From: Alphaproteobacteria bacterium
Lineage (GTDB): Bacteria > Pseudomonadota > Alphaproteobacteria > Reyranellales > Reyranellaceae
DNA length: 43,635 nt
Direction of reading: 5' to 3'
Assembly (NCBI GenBank): GCA_019235415.1
Contig: JAFAKN010000645.1
Location: forward strand, 1 to 43,635
Under the pieces are notes generated by a model. That model made no database searches and was not told where the DNA came from. It saw nothing but the letters and a program-made list of their open reading frames with translations. The position numbers and the translations under genes were made by a program. This document shows, in pieces, positions 574 to 42,139 of the stretch (the stretch's first letter is position 1; each line of letters opens with the position of its first letter).

Positions 574-1455
574 ATGACATCGATCAGTCGACGCCTCCTG
601 TGTGCGGGCACTGCGTTGCTGCCCTTCGCGGCGCGGGCCGAGACCAGCGATCCCAAGCTCGCGGCGTGGCTGCGCGGCGTGCGCGCCGAGGCGCTGAAGG
701 CCGGCGTCGATGCCGGCACGCTCGATGCGGCGCTGGGCTCGGTCGAGGAGATCCCACGCGTCATGGAGCTCGCGCACAACCAGCCGGAGTTCAAGATGAC
801 CTGGGATCAGTATCTCGGGATCGTCGTTTCCGACGAACGCGTCACCAAGGGTCGTGCGCTGCTCAAGGAGAACCGGGCGCTGGTCGATCGCTTCGCCGTG
901 CCAACCGGCATCCCGAGCTCGACCGTAGTGGCGCTGTGGGGCATCGAGAGCAACTTCGGCACGCGGCTCGGCGACTTCGAGGTCGTGCCGGCGCTGGCGA
1001 CGCTCGCCTACAACAACTTCCGCGCCCAGTTCTTCCGCGGCCAGCTGATCGCGGCTCTGCAGATCGTGTCGCAGGGGCACATCGGCCTGCACCAGATGAA
1101 AGGCTCGTGGGCCGGCGCCATGGGCCAGTGCCAGTTCATCCCCACGAGCTTTTTAGCTTACGCCGCCGACGGTGACGGCGACGGGCGCAAGGACATCTGG
1201 ACCAACAAGGCCGACGTGTTCGCCTCGATCGTGAACTACCTCAACCGCGTCGGCTGGCGGCCCGGCCTGTCGTGGGGCGAGGAGGTCACCGGCGCCGGCG
1301 GGCAGGGCGGCGGCCGCATCGTGCGCCCGGCCGGGGCCAACGGGCCCGCCTTTCGCACGACCGAGAACTTCAAGGTCATCCTGCGCTGGAACCAATCGGA
1401 CTTCTTCGGCCTCGCGGTCGGGCTGTTGTCCGACAGAATCGCGGCGCCGGGATAA
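574..1455 (+). CDS. Lytic murein transglycosylase, MltB/SLT_2 family
   Basis: Cleaves the glycan strands of peptidoglycan in the periplasm, forming 1,6-anhydro-muramoyl ends. The 293-residue product starts at the ATG at 574, preceded by GGAGA at 565-569. It begins with a signal sequence (S-R-R-L-L, a hydrophobic core, then A-R-A-E). The family signature around G-I-E-S-N-F-G places the catalytic glutamate near residue 125, followed by the aromatic/Gly-rich M-G-Q-C-Q-F-I-P segment typical of SLT_2 domains. No lipobox is visible, so it is probably soluble in the periplasm, unlike E. coli MltB. RlpA and a D,D-carboxypeptidase follow, giving a cell-wall remodelling group. An upstream TTG at 520 is in frame but would bury the signal peptide. 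Confidence 0.9.
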   Translation: MTSISRRLLCAGTALLPFAARAETSDPKLAAWLRGVRAEALKAGVDAGTLDAALGSVEEIPRVMELAHNQPEFKMTWDQYLGIVVSDERVTKGRALLKENRALVDRFAVPTGIPSSTVVALWGIESNFGTRLGDFEVVPALATLAYNNFRAQFFRGQLIAALQIVSQGHIGLHQMKGSWAGAMGQCQFIPTSFLAYAADGDGDGRKDIWTNKADVFASIVNYLNRVGWRPGLSWGEEVTGAGGQGGGRIVRPAGANGPAFRTTENFKVILRWNQSDFFGLAVGLLSDRIAAPG

Positions 1456-1481: not shown

Positions 1482-2519
1482 ATGAGGTATGATCAGCTTA
1501 CGATGCCCCAACGTGTAGTCAGCCCCCCCTCAGCGCAGGCCTTGCTGCGTCTGGGTATCGTGCTGGCCACCGCGGCGAGCGTCGCGGCCTGCGGCTCGTC
1601 CAGCAGCCGCCATGTCGCCCAGAGCCAGACGGGCGCCTACAAGATCGGCCCGCCCTACAAGGTCGATGGCGTCTGGTACACGCCGCAGGAAGAGTTCAAC
1701 CATGTCGAGACCGGCGTCGCGTCGTGGTACGGGCCGGGTTTCCACGGCAAGTCGACCGCCAACGGCGAGCGCTACGACCAGAGCGAACGGACCGCCGCGC
1801 ACCGCACCCTGCAGATGCCGGCCATCGTGCGGGTGACCAACCTGGACAATGGGCGCTCGACCGTGGTGCGCATCAACGACCGCGGCCCGTTCGCCCGCAG
1901 CCGCGTCATCGACCTGTCGCGCCAGGCCGCCGATGAGCTCGACATCGTGCGCATGGGCACGGCGCATGTCCGCATCGACCAGATGTCCGCAGAGAGCCAG
2001 GCCGTGAAAGAGGTCGCGTTGAACGGCGGAGGGCCGTCGGAGCAGATGACGGCCGTGGCGCAGGTCTCCTCCGGCCGACGCACGGCGCAGCCGGCCCCGA
2101 CGCAGGCCGTGGCCTATGCGCCGCCCCCTTCGCCGCCGGCCCCTCAGCAACCGCCCCCTCAGCAGCAGCCGACGCCCGCGGTATGGCAACCGAGCAGCCC
2201 GCCGCCGGAAGCCGTTCCCGTCTCGAGCCGCGGGGTGGCGGGCGGCGCGACCGTGTCGTCGCTGGTCGCCGGCAACGCCCTGCACCCGGCCGGCGGCTTC
2301 TACGTGCAGACCGGCGCGTTCTCGACGCCGGAAAACGCCGAGCGTCAGCGCGACGCCGTCAGCAGCTACGGCGTGAGCGAAGTTTCCCAGGGCTCCGCGA
2401 GCGGACGCGAGGTCTACCGCGTCCGCCTGGGTCCCTATACAACCCCGGATGCCGCCGGCATTGTCGCCGATCGGCTGAAGCGGTCAGGCTATGGTGATGC
2501 CCGTGTCGTTGCGAACTGA
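1482..2519 (+). CDS. rlpA: RlpA family septal-ring lipoprotein with SPOR domain
   Basis: RlpA proteins bind or cleave denuded glycan strands at the division site. The product is 345 residues from the ATG at 1482; the ATG at 1503 would remove seven. It has a lipoprotein signal peptide ending in V-A-A-C (lipobox). A double-psi beta-barrel domain follows, with the family hallmarks G-V-A-S-W-Y-G, H-R-T-L, V-R-V-T-N-L and R-I-N-D-R-G-P-F. Next is a long Pro/Gln-rich linker of about 60 residues. A C-terminal SPOR domain (F-Y-V-Q-T-G-A-F through Y-R-V-R-L-G-P) would target septal glycan. The 3' end overlaps the next gene by 29 bases, suggesting cotranscription with the carboxypeptidase. Confidence 0.92.
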   Translation: MRYDQLTMPQRVVSPPSAQALLRLGIVLATAASVAACGSSSSRHVAQSQTGAYKIGPPYKVDGVWYTPQEEFNHVETGVASWYGPGFHGKSTANGERYDQSERTAAHRTLQMPAIVRVTNLDNGRSTVVRINDRGPFARSRVIDLSRQAADELDIVRMGTAHVRIDQMSAESQAVKEVALNGGGPSEQMTAVAQVSSGRRTAQPAPTQAVAYAPPPSPPAPQQPPPQQQPTPAVWQPSSPPPEAVPVSSRGVAGGATVSSLVAGNALHPAGGFYVQTGAFSTPENAERQRDAVSSYGVSEVSQGSASGREVYRVRLGPYTTPDAAGIVADRLKRSGYGDARVVAN

Positions 2520-3816
2520 TCGATTCCGCTCCCTGTTGGCAATCTTCATCGCGCTGAGCCTCGGCGGCGCTGGTCTCGGCGGTACCGGCCTCGACGTGCT
2601 GGCCCAGCAGGCCGACCCGACGCCGAGCAAGCGGCCGGCGCAACAGAAGCCGCCGGCCAAGCCGCGCCAGCCGGGCGCCGCTGCGGCCAAGCCGCCCTCG
2701 GCCAAGGCCGAGGCGGCCAAGACCGAGGCGCTGCCGCCCTCTCAGATCGGCATTGGGACGCTCGCCCGGCAGGCCTACATGGTCGACCCGCTGACCTCGA
2801 CGGTGCTTCTCTTCAAGGAAGCCGACAAGCCGATGCATCCCTCGTCGATGGCCAAGATGATGACGATCTACATCGTCTTCGAGGAGCTGGCCTCGGGACG
2901 GCTGAAGCTCGACACCAAGTTCCGCGTGAGCGAGCGGGCGCGCAACATGGGCGGCTCGCGGATGTTCGTCGAGCTCGGCAGCGAGGTCTCGGTCGAGGAT
3001 CTCCTGAAGGGCATGATCGTGCTCTCGGGCAACGACGCCTGCGTGGTGATCGCCGAAGGCTTGGCCGGCAACGAGGACAGCTTCGCCGAGCGCATGACGC
3101 GCAAAGGGCGCGAGCTCGGCATGAGCGCTACGACATTCAAGAACGCCTCGGGCTGGCCGGCCGAGGGACAATGGACCACGGCGCGCGACCTCGCGGTGCT
3201 GGCTTGGCACACCATCGAGGATTTTCCGCAGTACTATCACTACTATTCGGAGTCCAACTGGACCTACAACAACATCAAGCAGGAGAACCGTAACCGCCTG
3301 CTGAAGATCACCCCCGGCACCGACGGCCTCAAGACCGGCCACACGGAGGAGGGCGGCTTCGGCCAGGCGACCTCGGTGGTGCGCGACGGTCGCCGCCTGA
3401 TCCTGATCGTGAACGGGCTGACGACGATGGCCGAACGCGCGCATGAGACGGCACGGCTGATGGAATGGGGCTTCCGCGAAACGACCAACACGACGGTATT
3501 CCGCGCCGGCGACGTCGTCGCCGAGGCCCCGGTGTGGCTCGGCACGCAGGACAAGGTGCCGCTGGTGGTGTCCAAGCCGATTGCGGTCACGACGCCGACC
3601 GGCCAACCGGCCTCGCCGCGCGTCACGGCGAAATTCGATGGGCCGTTGCCGGCGCCCATCGCCAAGGGCACCCAGCTCGGCACCGCGGCGCTCACCATGC
3701 CGGACGGCCGGGTGGTCGAATATCCGCTCGAAGCCGGCACCGACGTGCCGCGTCGCGGCGTGCTCGGCCGAGTCGCCGGGATGATCCAGCACTACCTGTT
3801 CGGCTGGTGGTCGTGA
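2491..3816 (+). CDS. D-alanyl-D-alanine carboxypeptidase (peptidase S11, DacA/PBP5-like)
   Basis: Removes the terminal D-Ala from peptidoglycan pentapeptides in the periplasm. The 441-residue protein shows the three penicillin-binding motifs in order: S-M-A-K with the nucleophile at Ser119 and Lys122, S-G-N in L-S-G-N-D-A, and K-T-G in L-K-T-G-H-T. A hydrophobic N-terminal helix (about 14-35) is the export signal. An unusually long Pro/Ala/Lys-rich linker (about 41-83) separates it from the catalytic domain. A C-terminal S11 beta domain ends in an amphipathic G-M-I-Q-H-Y-L-F-G-W-W, typical of PBP5 membrane anchoring. The ATG at 2491 lies inside rlpA; an ATG at 2497 is equally possible. Confidence 0.9.
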   Translation: MVMPVSLRTDRFRSLLAIFIALSLGGAGLGGTGLDVLAQQADPTPSKRPAQQKPPAKPRQPGAAAAKPPSAKAEAAKTEALPPSQIGIGTLARQAYMVDPLTSTVLLFKEADKPMHPSSMAKMMTIYIVFEELASGRLKLDTKFRVSERARNMGGSRMFVELGSEVSVEDLLKGMIVLSGNDACVVIAEGLAGNEDSFAERMTRKGRELGMSATTFKNASGWPAEGQWTTARDLAVLAWHTIEDFPQYYHYYSESNWTYNNIKQENRNRLLKITPGTDGLKTGHTEEGGFGQATSVVRDGRRLILIVNGLTTMAERAHETARLMEWGFRETTNTTVFRAGDVVAEAPVWLGTQDKVPLVVSKPIAVTTPTGQPASPRVTAKFDGPLPAPIAKGTQLGTAALTMPDGRVVEYPLEAGTDVPRRGVLGRVAGMIQHYLFGWWS

Positions 3817-4454: not shown

Positions 4455-5585
4455 ATGGCCAGGGTCAAGGTGAGCGCCGACGCGGGTGATCTCGAAAAGC
4501 TCGAATGGCCGCACGACTGGCCGCCGGCGTGGCGCAGCCAGGATTTGCTCGGTCACAAGGCTGCGGAGGAGACGTTGCTGGCGGCGCATGGCAGCGGCCG
4601 CCTGCATCATGCCTGGCTGCTGGCCGGCCCGCGCGGTATCGGCAAGGCCACTTTGGCCTGGCGGTTCGCACGCTTCCTGTTGGTGGGCCAGGCGCAAGGC
4701 GGGCTGTTCGGAGACGGGCCGCAGACTCTCGACGTGTCGGCCGATGCGCCCGGCCGCGCGCTGATCGACGCGCGTTCGCATCCCGACCTGTTCCATTTGC
4801 GCCGCACGCTCAACCCTGACACCGGCCGCATGCGGGCCGAGATCGCCGTCGACGACGTCCGCGACCTCGGTGGGTTCATGCACATGACGCCCGCCCTCGG
4901 CCAATGGCGCGTGGCGATCGTCGATGCCGCCGATGAGATGAACCGCAACAGTGCCAACGCGGTGCTGAAGATCCTCGAAGAGCCGCCACCCAATGCAGTG
5001 CTGCTGATCGTGACGCATGCGCCCGGACGGCTACTGCCGACCATCCGCTCGCGCTGCCGTCGCCTCACGCTGCCGCCGCTTTCGCAAGAGACCGTTATGA
5101 AGCTCCTGGAAGCGCATGCGCCGGCGCTTTCGGCCGACGAGCGCGCGGTCCTCGCCCAGCTCAGCGAGGGCAGCATCGGGCGGGCGCTGGAATTGAGCGG
5201 CGCCGGCAGCCTGGAGCTCTACCGCGAGATGGTCGACGTGCTGGCAACCTTGCCCGAGCTCGACATGCCGCGGCTGCACGGCTTCGCCGAACGCTTTGCG
5301 CGCCGCGGCGAGGAGGCGAACGCCGCTTGGCGCTCGCTCGGCTACCTGTTCGACGGCTGGCTGAAGGGGCTCGCGCGGCAAGCTGCGGTCGGGCAGGAAG
5401 CTGCAGCCATCGTGCCGTCGGAGCGCGGTCTGCGCGGGCGTCTGCTGACCGGAGCGAGCCTTGATCGCTGGATCGAGGCATGGGAGAAGGTCGCCGACCT
5501 GTTGTCGCGCGCCGACGCAGTCAACCTCGACCGCAAGCAGACGGTGCTCGGCAGCTTCCTGCTCCTGCAATCGGCGATGCGTTGA
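4455..5585 (+). CDS. holB: DNA polymerase III subunit delta'
   Basis: Part of the clamp loader that places the beta sliding clamp on DNA. The 376-residue AAA+ protein begins at the ATG at 4455 behind GGGGAG at 4442-4447. The Walker A-like motif G-P-R-G-I-G-K-A-T (58-66) has Ala65 where active ATPases have Ser/Thr, which fits the known inability of delta' to hydrolyse ATP. The S-R-C motif (T-I-R-S-R-C-R-R-L-T) used in clamp loaders is present. The four-cysteine zinc module of E. coli delta' is absent. The tmk-holB-metG-tatD order is a common conserved cluster. Confidence 0.93.
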   Translation: MARVKVSADAGDLEKLEWPHDWPPAWRSQDLLGHKAAEETLLAAHGSGRLHHAWLLAGPRGIGKATLAWRFARFLLVGQAQGGLFGDGPQTLDVSADAPGRALIDARSHPDLFHLRRTLNPDTGRMRAEIAVDDVRDLGGFMHMTPALGQWRVAIVDAADEMNRNSANAVLKILEEPPPNAVLLIVTHAPGRLLPTIRSRCRRLTLPPLSQETVMKLLEAHAPALSADERAVLAQLSEGSIGRALELSGAGSLELYREMVDVLATLPELDMPRLHGFAERFARRGEEANAAWRSLGYLFDGWLKGLARQAAVGQEAAAIVPSERGLRGRLLTGASLDRWIEAWEKVADLLSRADAVNLDRKQTVLGSFLLLQSAMR

Positions 5586-10539: not shown

Positions 10540-11385
10540 TCACAGTGGCTTCGGCAAACTCGCCAGCAGAGGCAGCCGCACGGCCTCGAAGAGCCCGCGG
10601 GCCTCGGCCAGCGCGTCAGGCCGGGCCGCAGTGATCAGGCCTGAATTGAGCGGCTGAGCAGGCTCGTAGCTGTCGCCATTGAAGCGAACGGCGTCGCCGC
10701 CGGCTTCCTGCATCATCAAGGTGCCAGCGGCATGGTCCCACGGCTTGGTGAGGCGGTAGATGCAGAAGTCCGCCCGCCCGTTCAACAGCTCGAGGTACTC
10801 GGCGCCGGCACAGTTCAGGGTGGACAATCGCGCCAGCTGGCCCCGTTGCGCCTGCGGCAGTTGCCTGTCGAACTCCTTGCGGATGCGGTAACCGACAAAG
10901 CCGACCAGAGGTCGGCGGTCCGATGGCCGGCGCGCGACAGGTTGGGCGTCGAGCATGACCCCCTCCCCGCGCGTGGCCACGGCCATGTGCCCGCCCAAGA
11001 CATCGAGGATCCAGCCGGCGACCGCCCTGGTGTCCTGCACCAGGCAGACGATCATGGCGAAGCGCTCCTTGCCGGCGGCAAAGTTCGCCGTGCCATCGAG
11101 GGGATCGACGACCCAGCAGGCCTCACCGGGCCGTGCAATCAAACCAACCAGCCCGGGATCCTTCTCGACGGCTTCCTCGCCGACCACCGGCACGCCGGGC
11201 AGGATCTTGGCCAGCCCAGACGCAAGGCGCTGCTCGGAGAGCTCGTCGGCGACGGTCACGAAATCGCCCGGCCGCTTCTGGCGGATCTCGTCCTTGGCGA
11301 GCGCACGGAAGCGCGGCACGAGCTCGGCCGCCGCCGTCTCGCGCATCAGCTCGGCGACCCGCTCGGTATCGCCGTCCTTCAGCAT
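10540..11385 (-). CDS. Inositol monophosphatase family phosphatase
   Basis: A 281-residue Mg2+-dependent sugar or nucleotide phosphatase of the IMPase superfamily. The motifs are G-E-E, W-V-V-D-P-L-D-G-T-A-N-F (metal-binding DPLDG) and K-P-W-D-H-A-A-G, in order. The family includes inositol monophosphatase, histidinol phosphatase HisN, CysQ and fructose-1,6-bisphosphatase, and sequence alone does not settle the substrate here. It lies four bases downstream of groES and is probably cotranscribed with it. Confidence 0.88.
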   Translation of the reverse strand: MLKDGDTERVAELMRETAAAELVPRFRALAKDEIRQKRPGDFVTVADELSEQRLASGLAKILPGVPVVGEEAVEKDPGLVGLIARPGEACWVVDPLDGTANFAAGKERFAMIVCLVQDTRAVAGWILDVLGGHMAVATRGEGVMLDAQPVARRPSDRRPLVGFVGYRIRKEFDRQLPQAQRGQLARLSTLNCAGAEYLELLNGRADFCIYRLTKPWDHAAGTLMMQEAGGDAVRFNGDSYEPAQPLNSGLITAARPDALAEARGLFEAVRLPLLASLPKPL

Positions 11386-14159: not shown

Positions 14160-15019
14160 GTCACCTGCTCGCCGGCGCTGGCAAACCGGACATACTCCTC
14201 ACGCAGGCGGCGCGCCGTCGGACCGACGTTGCCGTCTCCTACCGTCTCGCCGTCGATCTTCACGACCGGCAACACGAACGAGGTCGCGCTGGTCACGAAC
14301 GCTTCCTTCGCCTGCTTGGCTTCGGCCAATGTGAAGGGGCGCTCGACGATCTTGAGCTGCAAGTCCTTGGCCAGCGACTTCAGGGTGCCGCGCGTGATGC
14401 CGGCCAGGATGCCGTTGTCGGACTGGCGGGTCACTAGCTCGTTGTCCTGCGTCACGATCCAGGCGTTCGTCGAGGCGCCTTCGGTGACCCTGCCCTGGCC
14501 GTCGACCAGCCAAGCCTCATAGGCGCCGCTCTCGCGCGCAGCCTGCTTGGCGAGCACATTGGGCAACAGCGCGACGGTCTTGATGTCGCAGCGCTCCCAG
14601 CGGATGTCCGGGTGGCTTTTGACGGCGACGCCCGGTCCCGGCTCCGCCTCGGCCCGCTTGGCATTCTTGGTCGTCAGCACCAGCGCAGGCTTGACCGGCT
14701 TCGTCGGAAAAGCATGGTCCCGCCGTGCCACGCCGCGCGTCACTTGGATGTAGACAAGCCCGTCGGTCAGGCGGTTGCGGCGCATCAGCTCGCGGATGAC
14801 GAAGCCGAGAGTGGCGCGCGATACCGGCCAGGCGATGCGGAGCTCCCTCAGCGAGCGGTCGAGGCGGTCGATATGCGGCTGCTCGTCGATCAGACGACCC
14901 TCGCGCACGCCCACGACCTCGTAGACGCCGTCGGCGAGCTGATAACCGCGATCCTCGATATGGACCGAGGCGGTGCGATGATCGACGTAGCGTCCGTTGA
15001 CGTAAGCGTAGCGCGCCAT
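14156..15019 (-). CDS. D-amino-acid aminotransferase (class IV PLP enzyme)
   Basis: Transfers the amino group between D-amino acids and 2-oxo acids, for example in forming D-Ala or D-Glu. 287 residues with a fold-type IV pattern: V-N-G-R-Y and E-D-R-G-Y-Q-L-A-D-G-V-Y-E near the N-terminus, the PLP lysine in C-D-I-K-T-V-A-L-L-P-N-V-L-A-K-Q, and E-G-A-S-T-N-A-W / G-I-L-A-G-I-T-R-G phosphate-binding segments. The C-D-I-K context matches D-amino-acid transaminase better than IlvE. It follows ntrX by eight bases, a linkage common in this group of bacteria. Confidence 0.88.
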   Translation of the reverse strand: MARYAYVNGRYVDHRTASVHIEDRGYQLADGVYEVVGVREGRLIDEQPHIDRLDRSLRELRIAWPVSRATLGFVIRELMRRNRLTDGLVYIQVTRGVARRDHAFPTKPVKPALVLTTKNAKRAEAEPGPGVAVKSHPDIRWERCDIKTVALLPNVLAKQAARESGAYEAWLVDGQGRVTEGASTNAWIVTQDNELVTRQSDNGILAGITRGTLKSLAKDLQLKIVERPFTLAEAKQAKEAFVTSATSFVLPVVKIDGETVGDGNVGPTARRLREEYVRFASAGEQVT

Positions 15020-39283: not shown

Positions 39284-40039
39284 TTATGCAGCCTTGGCGA
39301 TAGCCAAAAACTCAGGCGCCTTAAGGCTCGCGCCGCCGACCAGCGCGCCGTCGACGTCGCCCGCCGCCAGCAGCTCGGCGGCGTTGCTCTCTTTCACCGA
39401 ACCGCCATAGAGCAAACGGATCCCCGCCGCCTCGCTGGTGAGCGTCGCCAGCACCTTACGGATGTGGCCGTGGGCGGCGGCGACCTCGGCTGTTGTCGGC
39501 GTCTTGCCGGTGCCGATCGCCCACACCGGCTCGTACGCCACGACCGTGTTCCACGCGGTCGCTCCGGGCGGAATGCTCCCCTTGAGCTGCGTCGCGAGCA
39601 CCTCCAGCGTGTCACCGGCCTCACGCTCGTCCAAGGTCTCGCCAATGCAGATCACGGGCACCAGGCTCGCGCGCCACGCCGCCTCGGCCTTGGCGCGTAC
39701 CAAGGCATCGCTCTCGCCGTGGTCGGCGCGTCGCTCGGAGTGCCCGACGATCACGTGGCTGGCACCGCAGTCGCGCAGCATCTCGGCGGCGATGTCGCCC
39801 GTGTGGGCGCCGGACGGCTTGGCATGGCAATCCTGGCCGCCGACCAGAAGCGCGCTGCCGCGGACGGCATCGGCAACCGCCATGACCAGCGTGGCTGGCG
39901 GACAGATCAGGACCTGCCGGTCGGTCCACGCAGCCTGCTTCACGCCGTCCGCAACCGCCCTGGCCAACGCCAGGGCATCACTCCTCAGGCCGTTCATCTT
40001 CCAGTTGCCGGCGATCATCGGCTGCCTCGTACGCGCCAT
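39284..40039 (-). CDS. tpiA: Triosephosphate isomerase
   Basis: Interconverts dihydroxyacetone phosphate and glyceraldehyde 3-phosphate. 251 residues with G-N-W-K-M-N at the N-terminus, the catalytic His in V-I-V-G-H-S-E-R-R, the catalytic Glu in [11 protein letters not shown] and the phosphate-binding L-Y-G-G-S-V. A strong AAGGGGAAA ribosome site precedes the ATG. It is divergent from ppiD. Confidence 0.97.
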
Positions 40040-40066
40040 GAATTTCCCCTTTTTATGCCGCTGCGC

Positions 40067-40095
40067 TCTCTAGCGGCCGCGCTTCGTGCGGTCAA
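40067..40095 (-). promoter_or_regulatory. Candidate tpiA promoter
   Basis: Minus strand TTGACC (40095-40090) is five of six bases from the -35 consensus and sits 17 bases before TAGAGA (40072-40067), a weak -10. It is placed correctly for tpiA, about 28 bases before the ATG. Confidence 0.4.
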
Positions 40096-40164
40096 AGAGC
40101 CTCGGTTGCCTGCCTCAGGGGCCGGTGGTAGGCATGGCGCCCCAAATCGGGCCTCAGCGCCCCC

Positions 40165-40207
40165 CGTGAAAGCGCACACGTGAAAGCGCGCTCGTGAAAG
40201 CGCAGTC
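40165..40207 (+). repeat. Three tandem 14-bp repeats forming chained mini-ORFs before ppiD
   Basis: CGTGAAAGCGC followed by three variable bases occurs at 40165, 40179 and 40193, and a fourth partial copy supplies the CGTGAA of the ppiD start. Each copy reads GTG-AAA-GCG-x-x-TGA, and each TGA overlaps the next GTG as GTGA. The third mini-ORF's stop overlaps the ppiD GTG at 40208. No ordinary ribosome site is seen; GAAAG in the last copy is the nearest purine run. Confidence 0.75.
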
Positions 40208-42139
40208 GTGAACAAGTTCCGCAAGTACGCCGGCTACATCATCTCGTTCGTGCTCTTCGGCATGCTGATCGTCAGCTTCGCACTGTGGGGCATCGGCGAC
40301 ATGCTGCGCACCGGCGGCCGCAGCAGCGAGGTGGCGCATATAGGCGGGACCCATATCCCGGTTTACGGCTGGATCGGCGGCGCGTCGGTCCCGGTCAGCG
40401 AGGTGCGCGAGCAGTTCAACCGGCAGCTCGAGAATATCCAGCGCCAGACCGGCCAACGGCCCGAGCAGGAGCAGGCGCTGCGCTTTGGCCTGCACGTGCG
40501 GGCCCTCGAAGAAGTCGTCCAGCGCGCCATTCTCGAATACGCCACGCAGCAGCTCGGCCTCGTCGTCAGCGATGCCGAGGTGCAGGCGGCGATCGCGCGC
40601 AATCCGGCCTTCCAGGGGGCAGGCGGCAAGTTCGATTCCATGACGTTCCGCAACCGCCTGCAGCAGGCGCGCATCTCCGAGGCTCAGTTCGTCACCGAGC
40701 TCAAGCGCGAGATCGCCGCTAGCCAGCTCTTTTCTGTCGTCCAACCGGACGGCTTGGCGCCGAAGTCGCTGCGCGACGACATCTTCAAGATGGAGCAGGA
40801 GAAGCGGATCGCCGAGACGATCTACGTCCCCGACTCGATCGTGGTCGACGTGCCCAAGCCCACGGCGGAGCAGCTGAACGCCTATTTCGAGGCCAACAAG
40901 GCCAAGTTCCAGATCCCCGAGTACCGCGCCTTCTCCTATGTGCTGCTCAGCGTCGACGACATCCTGCCGCAGGTCACCGTCACCGCCGAGCAGGTGAAGC
41001 AGGAGTACGAGGCGCGTGCCGCCGAGTTCGGCAGCCCGGAAAAGCGCGATGTCGACCAGGCCATGGCCGACAGCGAGGATAAGGCCAAGGCGATCATCGC
41101 AGCGGTGAAGTCCGGCAAGTCGCTCGAGGATGCGACCAAAGAGGTCGTGGGCAACGCCGATGGCGTGATCAAGCTCGGCACCGTCACCAAGAAGGATCTG
41201 CCGCCCGGCCCGCTCGCCGATGGCGTCTTCGGCCTGCCCGAGGGCGTGGCGCCGGCGCCGATCCAGTCGCCGCTGGGCTGGCATGTCATCCGCATCAACA
41301 AGATCGAGCCCGGCAAGCTGCAGCCGTTCGACGAGGTCAAGGCGCGACTCGAGAAGGATCTCAAGGCGCAGCAGGCCCCTGATCTGCTGATCAAGTTGGT
41401 GACCGACTTCGAGCGCATCCTGAGCAAGACCCAGTCGATGAAGCAGGCGGCCGACGAGCTCGGCCTGAAGGTCAGGAGCTACGAGAACGTCGACGCCAAG
41501 GGGCAGGACGCGGCGGGCAAGCAGATCGTGATCGGACCGGCCGCCAACGAGCTCGTGCAGGCGGCCTTCTCGACGCGCGAAGGCAATGAGAGCGACCTGT
41601 TGGAGACGCCGCACGGCGAGTACTTCGTGGTGCGCACCGACCGCGTGACGCCCGCCCGCATCCCGGCTCTGAACGAGGTCGAGGACAAGGTGATCGCCGC
41701 CTGGCAGGCGGAAGAGCGGCGCAAGCTCGCCGAGGCCAAGGTCAAGGCCGCGGTCGAGAAGGCGCAAGCCGGAACCGACCTCGCCACCATCGCCAAGGAG
41801 CTGGGCCTGGAGGTCCGCACGACCAAGGCTGTCTCGCGCTACGAGGCCGACCAGGGCAACTATCTCACGCAGCCCGTCGTGCTGGCGCTGTTCAAGCTCG
41901 AGCCCGGCAAGCTGACCTCGGTGCGCACCGCCGAGGGCAGCGTGATCGTGCGCCTGAAAGAGGTGCAACCGGTCGACCTTGCCAAGGAGAAGGACGCCCT
42001 CGACCGCTTCGGCAAGCAGCTCGACACCATGGTGGCCAACGACCTCCTGCTCGAGCTGGTGGGCGCGTTGCGTTCCAAGTACGGCGTGGCTGTCGACCAG
42101 GAAGTGTTCCTCGCGGCCTTCCGGCCGCAGCAGCAATAG
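40208..42139 (+). CDS. PpiD-like periplasmic peptidyl-prolyl isomerase/chaperone
   Basis: Inner-membrane-anchored chaperone that helps newly secreted proteins fold, 643 residues from a GTG. One N-terminal membrane helix (about 9-30) is followed by a SurA_N/PpiD_N domain (about 35-180, with E-x-x-V-Q-R-A-I-L and Q-F-V-T-E-L-K-R-E-I). Next is a central parvulin-like domain, recognisable mainly by G-V-F-G-L-P-E-G and S-P-L-G-W-H-V-I-R-I (about 345-365). The first half of the parvulin fold lacks the usual H-I-L-V, so isomerase activity may be weak, as in E. coli PpiD. A helical C-terminus closes it. trpE starts three bases after the stop. Confidence 0.9.
   Translation: MNKFRKYAGYIISFVLFGMLIVSFALWGIGDMLRTGGRSSEVAHIGGTHIPVYGWIGGASVPVSEVREQFNRQLENIQRQTGQRPEQEQALRFGLHVRALEEVVQRAILEYATQQLGLVVSDAEVQAAIARNPAFQGAGGKFDSMTFRNRLQQARISEAQFVTELKREIAASQLFSVVQPDGLAPKSLRDDIFKMEQEKRIAETIYVPDSIVVDVPKPTAEQLNAYFEANKAKFQIPEYRAFSYVLLSVDDILPQVTVTAEQVKQEYEARAAEFGSPEKRDVDQAMADSEDKAKAIIAAVKSGKSLEDATKEVVGNADGVIKLGTVTKKDLPPGPLADGVFGLPEGVAPAPIQSPLGWHVIRINKIEPGKLQPFDEVKARLEKDLKAQQAPDLLIKLVTDFERILSKTQSMKQAADELGLKVRSYENVDAKGQDAAGKQIVIGPAANELVQAAFSTREGNESDLLETPHGEYFVVRTDRVTPARIPALNEVEDKVIAAWQAEERRKLAEAKVKAAVEKAQAGTDLATIAKELGLEVRTTKAVSRYEADQGNYLTQPVVLALFKLEPGKLTSVRTAEGSVIVRLKEVQPVDLAKEKDALDRFGKQLDTMVANDLLLELVGALRSKYGVAVDQEVFLAAFRPQQQ

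Follow-up and report, generated by a model that had tools for sequence, protein, structure and literature searches.

Tandem 14-bp copies of the ppiD start segment in a Reyranella genome: a probable lineage-specific expansion with chained stop and start codons

The ppiD-like gene of the window (the whole stretch of 43,635 nucleotides analyzed here, one entire contig of a 7.63-Mb genome in 768 contigs) is preceded by three 14-bp units GTGAAAGCGCNNNC, the last of which ends on the ppiD GTG (Table 1). Judging from the leaders of related genomes, the ppiD start segment was expanded in tandem in the lineage of the window, and we consider it fairly probable that the chaining of its stop and start codons follows from the length of the unit (14 = 3n+2). 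The expansion is probably near-neutral at ppiD.

The ppiD start and its leader in Reyranella relatives

The three chained five-codon mini-ORFs running into the ppiD start, reported in the first-pass annotation, are real, as seen both in the sequence and with TRF. Each TGA overlaps the following GTG within a GTGA (at 40180, 40194, and 40208), the 4-nt stop/start overlap that characterizes gene pairs coupled by termination-reinitiation, and the GTG at 40208 is the earliest possible start in frame after the TGA at 40181-40183. TRF gave a period of 14 with 3.4 copies, 88% match, and a score of 75; no other window repeat whose period is indivisible by 3 scored as high. When the window was simulated 300 times with an order-3 Markov model, a comparable period-14 array arose once, and the observed array is not chance composition. 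It is better parsed as four copies of AGCGC-NNNC-GTGAA, the oldest of which carries its GTG at the start position of the relatives. GTGA is unchanged in all copies, whereas some other positions of the unit are altered.

Table 1. Features of the ppiD locus (window coordinates) and other 14-bp arrays of the same genome (coordinates within each locus).
Feature	Position	Strand	Basis or context
tpiA, TIM domain, divergent neighbor	39284..40039	-	domain match
Promoter-like element TTGCCTG-N11-GGTGGTAGGCAT	40106..40135	+	upstream of ppiD; conserved in genus
Oldest unit copy, AGCGC CCCCC GTGAA, 15 bp	40156..40170	+	parse; GTG at relatives' start position
Further AGCGC-NNNC-GTGAA copies	40171-40184; 40185-40198; 40199-40212	+	parse
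14-bp tandem array (ppiD)	40165..40212	+	TRF; RTGA start copied
Mini-ORF 1, GTG AAA GCG CAC ACG TGA	40166..40183	+	sequence
Mini-ORF 2, GTG AAA GCG CGC TCG TGA	40180..40197	+	sequence
Mini-ORF 3, GTG AAA GCG CAG TCG TGA	40194..40211	+	sequence; overlaps ppiD start
ppiD-like gene, 643 aa, GTG start	40208..42139	+	domain matches (SurA_N_3 + Rotamase_2)
L112 array	923-978		between nitrile hydratase beta subunit and small NHase-like gene; GTGA
L129 array	2483-2551		between ABC permease and its ATPase
L146 array	5352-5391		between ABC permease and short-chain dehydrogenase; ATGA
L229 array	14451-14504	-	between two FAD-binding monooxygenase-type genes; ATGA
L231 array	10699-10741		three SD-like units (AGGGGAGAGGCGGC) directly before ATG of glmS-like gene; no chain
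L216 array	5281-5337		spacer after a stop; no chain
L148 array	10827-10895		outside recognized genes

We searched 65 genomes of the genus, including that of the window, and obtained a protein match in 62, three of which (G015, G026, G027) gave a weak paralogue match only. A ppiD orthologue with a readable N-terminus was present in 58 of the 64 other genomes, and contig ends at most 33 nt from the start (L003, L009, L051) reduced these to 55 relatives with a leader of at least 60 nt. The array unit was found in none of these 55. The alignment of the spacer in relatives, suggested earlier as a check for conservation, thus spoke against it: a conserved ppiD device is ruled out, and the mini-ORFs are not conserved in relatives as a leader peptide or uORF would be. 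A period-14 leader repeat at 80% identity or more occurred in the window only, weaker single repeats of 12 or 13 bp being present elsewhere in the leaders L007, L010, and L040. For G024, which at 81% identity is the closest relative, the readable leader is limited to 10 nt and does not contain the unit.

The history of the array could be read from its distance to a conserved upstream element. AGGCAT was present in all 56 ppiD leaders of at least 60 nt (window included), 51 of which had the exact TTGCC-19-AGGCAT spacing, and from this conservation the element is probably a promoter. Its only exact match in the genome is the ppiD locus, the next best having 3 mismatches. The element is also an inverted repeat, though an imperfect one (TGCCTGCC/GGTAGGCA). 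The start lies 72 nt from AGGCAT in the window and 29-53 nt from it in 52 start-aligned relatives, with 30 as the commonest value. Subtracting the 42 bp of the insert from 72 gives precisely these 30 nt, which points to a tandem expansion of the start segment. A segment spanning the original ppiD start (AGCGC-NNNC-GTGAA) was expanded by three 14-bp copies in the lineage of the window. The relatives and this distance thus agree best with the alternative that the first-pass annotation had itself mentioned, a duplicated segment with the start in its last copy. We also considered a conserved ORF running from the ATG of the TAGGCATG element to the ppiD start and rejected it because its frame varies among close relatives (AGGCAT-to-start distances of 29, 30, and 31); furthermore, if the element is a promoter, this ATG lies before the transcript.

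It had also been claimed that no normal ribosome site precedes ppiD, and this was confirmed: the leader is without an SD core (GGAG/GAGG/AGGA/AAGG), the best match to the anti-SD complement being GAAAG, 7 nt upstream. The SD core was however lacking in 56 of the 57 ppiD leaders of at least 20 nt (window included), L031 being the exception. The absence of SD is thus the norm in the genus with or without the repeat, so that the chain is not required for ribosome recruitment, and the proposed dependence of ppiD on the chain for its ribosomes is not supported. This scoring used an assumed anti-SD sequence, as a 16S gene to supply the genuine one was sought but not found. Feeding of ppiD from upstream translation is not supported at this locus either: tpiA lies on the opposite strand, so that the chain is fed by no upstream gene, and the translated upstream cistron that delivers ribosomes in a coupled pair is missing.

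Single chained sites were nevertheless found in some relatives. In 5 of the 55, an RTGA lies no more than 45 nt ahead of the ppiD start, and each of the five opens a mini-ORF that stops on this start, the distance being 11 nt (L015, L017), 14 nt (L053, L054), or 23 nt (L055). L015/L017 and L053/L054 are two pairs whose single mini-ORFs differ from the window unit; the five sites amount to about three independent cases, with a probability by chance of about 1 in 27 by our own arithmetic, and as a pattern in the leaders they are suggestive at most of a role for the chain. Among 54 start-aligned leaders (window included), 6 have a mini-ORF no longer than 20 nt that stops on the start of ppiD, which is not above the expectation from base composition (about 10 by a rough estimate). 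In three relatives (L011, L025, and L059, from G051, G038, and G025), the ppiD start is apparently shifted and reads GTG AAT TCT (or TCC) CCG AAY ATG in frame, which would fit a short deletion joining an upstream GTG mini-ORF to the gene; L017 retains the separate form, with its upstream GTG mini-ORF unfused to ppiD.

Arrays of 14 bp in the genome, the genus, and the class

The chained arrangement is not a one-off, since it recurs at other gene starts in the genome and in the genus. We looked for tandem repeats in 951,711 bases of the genome of the window (81 pieces, about 12%), a sample that is not random because about a quarter of the pieces lie on contigs with earlier pattern matches; one such contig (C345) has a GTGA-14 match that was not counted as an array. 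With a minimum of 2.8 copies and multiples of 3 set aside, TRF recovered eight arrays of period 14, two of period 16, four of period 20, and none of periods 11, 13, and 17. The period-20 arrays correspond to a dispersed CTGTCATCCCGAGCGC repeat, observed in tandem units of 20-22 bp at L115:7894, L139:3907, L220:14351 and 18133, and L216:8360. Multiples of 3 were likewise common in TRF (twelve rows of 12 bp and nine of 15 bp). A second script applied to the same sample gave 8 arrays of period 14, against 1 of period 10, 1 of 11, 2 of 16, 2 of 20, 5 of 8, and none of 13 and 17; its single period-28 array was the L129 array again, and multiples of 3 gave 11 (9 bp), 9 (12 bp), 3 (15 bp), and 1 (18 bp). 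In 400 kb of G043 plus 400 kb of G007, this script detected no array of period 14, against 6.7 expected at the rate of the genome of the window (own arithmetic). At lower TRF score, short period-14 rows appeared in G043 (two) and G007 (one), and a four-unit array exists in G043 outside its 400-kb sample. The 14-bp arrays are thus commoner here than in the two sampled relatives, and single arrays occur in other species too.

In the 12% sample, the 14-bp arrays are mostly located at gene starts and stop/start junctions (Table 1). Five of the eight repeat an RTGA start codon, four of them between the stop of a gene and the next start, and L112, L146, and L229 each have an upstream gene. At L129, the first two units have TAA in place of TGA and the start of the ATPase may be the ATG located 12 nt past the last GTG. 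RTGA starts copied at 14 bp with at least 75% unit identity numbered five in this genome (ppiD, L112, L129, L146, L229) and none in the 800 kb of the relatives; weak RTGA copies at other distances were found at 8 bp (two), 9 bp, and 15 bp in this genome and once at 12 bp in each relative. The arrays L231, L216, and L148 form no start chain, so that the 14-bp length is independent of chaining, and the hypothesis that selection for chaining alone produced this period is weakened accordingly. The previous remark that the 14-base period exactly preserves the chaining is therefore correct in its arithmetic but carries less evidential weight than it seems to, since any 3n+2 length would do the same and unchained 14-bp arrays exist. 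Conversely, a purely mutational origin of the period is countered by the five of eight arrays on RTGA starts, and selection for the chain could also yield both the intact GTGA and this location on possible starts. A search for GTGA triplets with variable gaps gave at least 147 matches in the genome versus at least 27 in the control. Among the matches listed, the inspected triplets included equal spacings of 9, 12, and 15 bp besides 14, and the repeats at 12 and 15 bp are frame-extending and unchained (e.g., C122, C396, C228, C323).

In the genus, GTGA-N10-GTGA-N10-GTGA gave 52 matches in 28 of the 65 genomes and 18 in the reversed control, counts that include overlapping matches of single arrays, the control being in addition inflated by AGTG-containing arrays. 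The corresponding period-11 search, with overlaps counted in the same way, gave 42 matches in 11 of the 65 genomes and 5 in its reversed control; 28 of them were in G014 and G056, mostly from a dispersed GTGAGACATCG-like repeat, and 5 came from one G031 array, so that the comparison between the two periods is only qualitative. These GTGAGACATCG-like 11-bp tandem repeats are present on many contigs (21 pattern matches in G014 and 7 in G056) and are possibly transposon ends, which is a guess.

The 30 period-14 loci that we read in the genus correspond to 28 distinct arrays, one from the genome of the window, with genes called from ORF length and GC3. A coding-like ORF starts at the last GTGA in 11 of the 28 (and in one further array 14 nt on), and in 8 of these 11 an upstream coding-like ORF also stops in the first or second unit. 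Six of the 28 touch an upstream stop only and 10 neither a start nor a stop. Seven arrays (L179, L182, L185, L188, L189, L198, L199) have little unit similarity (never more than 4 of 10 positions between any units compared) and may be due to chance. The junction between a solute-binding protein and an ABC ATPase was read at 30 loci (L266-L295). It is a plain GTGA overlap in 9, eight of which are close to the expanded loci, and carries one extra unit in G048, two in G045 (15+14 bp), and three in G057, each expanded array still ending on the start; the remaining 18 loci have other stop/start arrangements. In a class-wide draw, the pattern was present in 62 of 385 genomes, including that of the window and one other Reyranella; as period 14 alone was searched, the result shows the occurrence of arrays of this kind elsewhere and no more. 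Perfect 14-bp GTGA tandem arrays were observed in scattered members of the class (e.g., G280, G180, G098, G342).

Interpretation of the array

With a unit of 14 = 3n+2 nucleotides containing GTGA, each copied start becomes a five-codon ORF stopping on the next start. Ribosomes starting at an upstream copy would then end on the next start instead of being lost out of frame, and the expansion would be tolerated, with at most a modest effect on PpiD. As there is no upstream gene at ppiD, little effect is expected there. Between two translated genes, the same chain would preserve translational coupling despite an insertion that could otherwise weaken it, and it may maintain coupling at the gene pairs described above, the passing on of a ribosome by a five-codon ORF being putative.

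A functional stop-start relay, in which ribosomes load at one of the upstream GTGs, translate five codons, terminate, and reinitiate at the following start to feed ppiD, with the copy number setting the output, appears rather unlikely to us. It would profit from the geometry of the chain, whose 4-nt overlap is a known means of gene coupling and is shared with the arrays between real gene pairs at L112, L146, and L229, from the genus arrays that start a coding-like ORF, from the variation between zero and three extra units among species at a single junction, and from the chained state of every near RTGA in the relatives. However, ppiD has neither an upstream cistron nor an SD core and the relatives manage without the array; mini-ORFs ending on the ppiD start do not exceed what base composition predicts, and, of the 28 genus arrays, 6 touch an upstream stop only and 10 no start or stop at all. 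The broader version of this idea, which we also regard as unlikely, would be that Reyranella has a class of heritable 14-bp relays handing ribosomes across stretched junctions, 14 bp being favored for preserving the 4-nt overlap together with an ORF of sufficient length to support reinitiation; the copy number would be an evolvable ratio between neighboring genes and ppiD a solo case devoid of donor.

The array could instead act as an inhibitory decoy, the extra GTGs and the longer, slightly less accessible leader diverting ribosomes and lowering PpiD. The predicted accessibility of the start is 0.44 with the array and 0.61 once the array is removed in silico, so that some effect is possible, but 0.44 falls inside the range of the relatives (mean 0.53, sd 0.08, range 0.38-0.70, n = 52), the leader fold is no more stable than shuffles (z = 1.0), and the mini-ORFs stop on the next start, so that diverted ribosomes would not be carried off; we judge this reading quite improbable. 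A structured or known leader RNA was rejected, given this ordinary fold and the absence of any Rfam match at the gathering threshold in 39900-40500. We consider it highly improbable that the array is a DNA-level element, whether binding repeats, the end of a mobile element, or an assembly artifact. The direct repeats do lie in tandem just past the promoter-like element and the genome is fragmented, but an insert of 42 bp is shorter than ordinary sequencing reads. The unit is repeated without mismatch at ppiD only, so that a dispersed or mobile repeat was rejected, and the other 14-bp arrays of the genome have units unrelated to it; the 11-mer CGTGAAAGCGC occurs 11 times in the genome, 3 of them in the ppiD array, against 6 in the reversed control. 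We thus favor the lineage-specific tandem expansion.

Three known systems resemble this array in part. Contingency loci are variable tandem repeats in bacterial leaders whose copy number changes by slippage. The ppiD array likewise has a tandem unit beside the start codon, with a copy number that could in principle change by slippage, but contingency loci are usually made of homopolymers or tetramers, whereas the ppiD unit is 14 bp long and carries a stop/start chain. Leader-peptide attenuators and uORFs are short ORFs located ahead of a gene, as are the mini-ORFs before ppiD; these differ, however, in that their unit is absent from relatives and the leader has no stable fold and no Rfam match. 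Termination-reinitiation at 4-nt (ATGA/GTGA) gene overlaps, which couples the translation of two genes, was reportedly described by Huber et al. in 2019. The stop/start overlap of such pairs is identical to that of the ppiD array, but the known pairs have a single overlap between two full genes, whereas ppiD has three tandem five-codon ORFs and no gene before them. In a 2023 E. coli study, reinitiation fell by 40-80% when a gap of 14 nt was inserted and was nearly abolished at 38 nt (PMC10666635); a 15-nt result given there concerns the end of a long translated fusion and not a free five-codon ORF. A review mentions studies with a much weaker dependence of reinitiation on distance (PMC12548453). 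As gaps of 14 and 38 nt are harmful to reinitiation according to the E. coli study, bridging of such a gap by a chain is conceivable in principle. Searches of the open-access literature (PMC; titles and abstract openings) brought up no paper describing arrays of this kind.

If the expansions are neutral, they nevertheless illustrate a run of 14-bp duplications within a single genome and explain how gene overlaps can absorb 3n+2 insertions. If the relays work, they would be natural constructs bearing on whether terminating ribosomes really reinitiate locally, since a ribosome can travel along a chain of five-codon ORFs only if it terminates and restarts again and again, and the species with 0, 1, 2, and 3 units at one junction would form a ready series.
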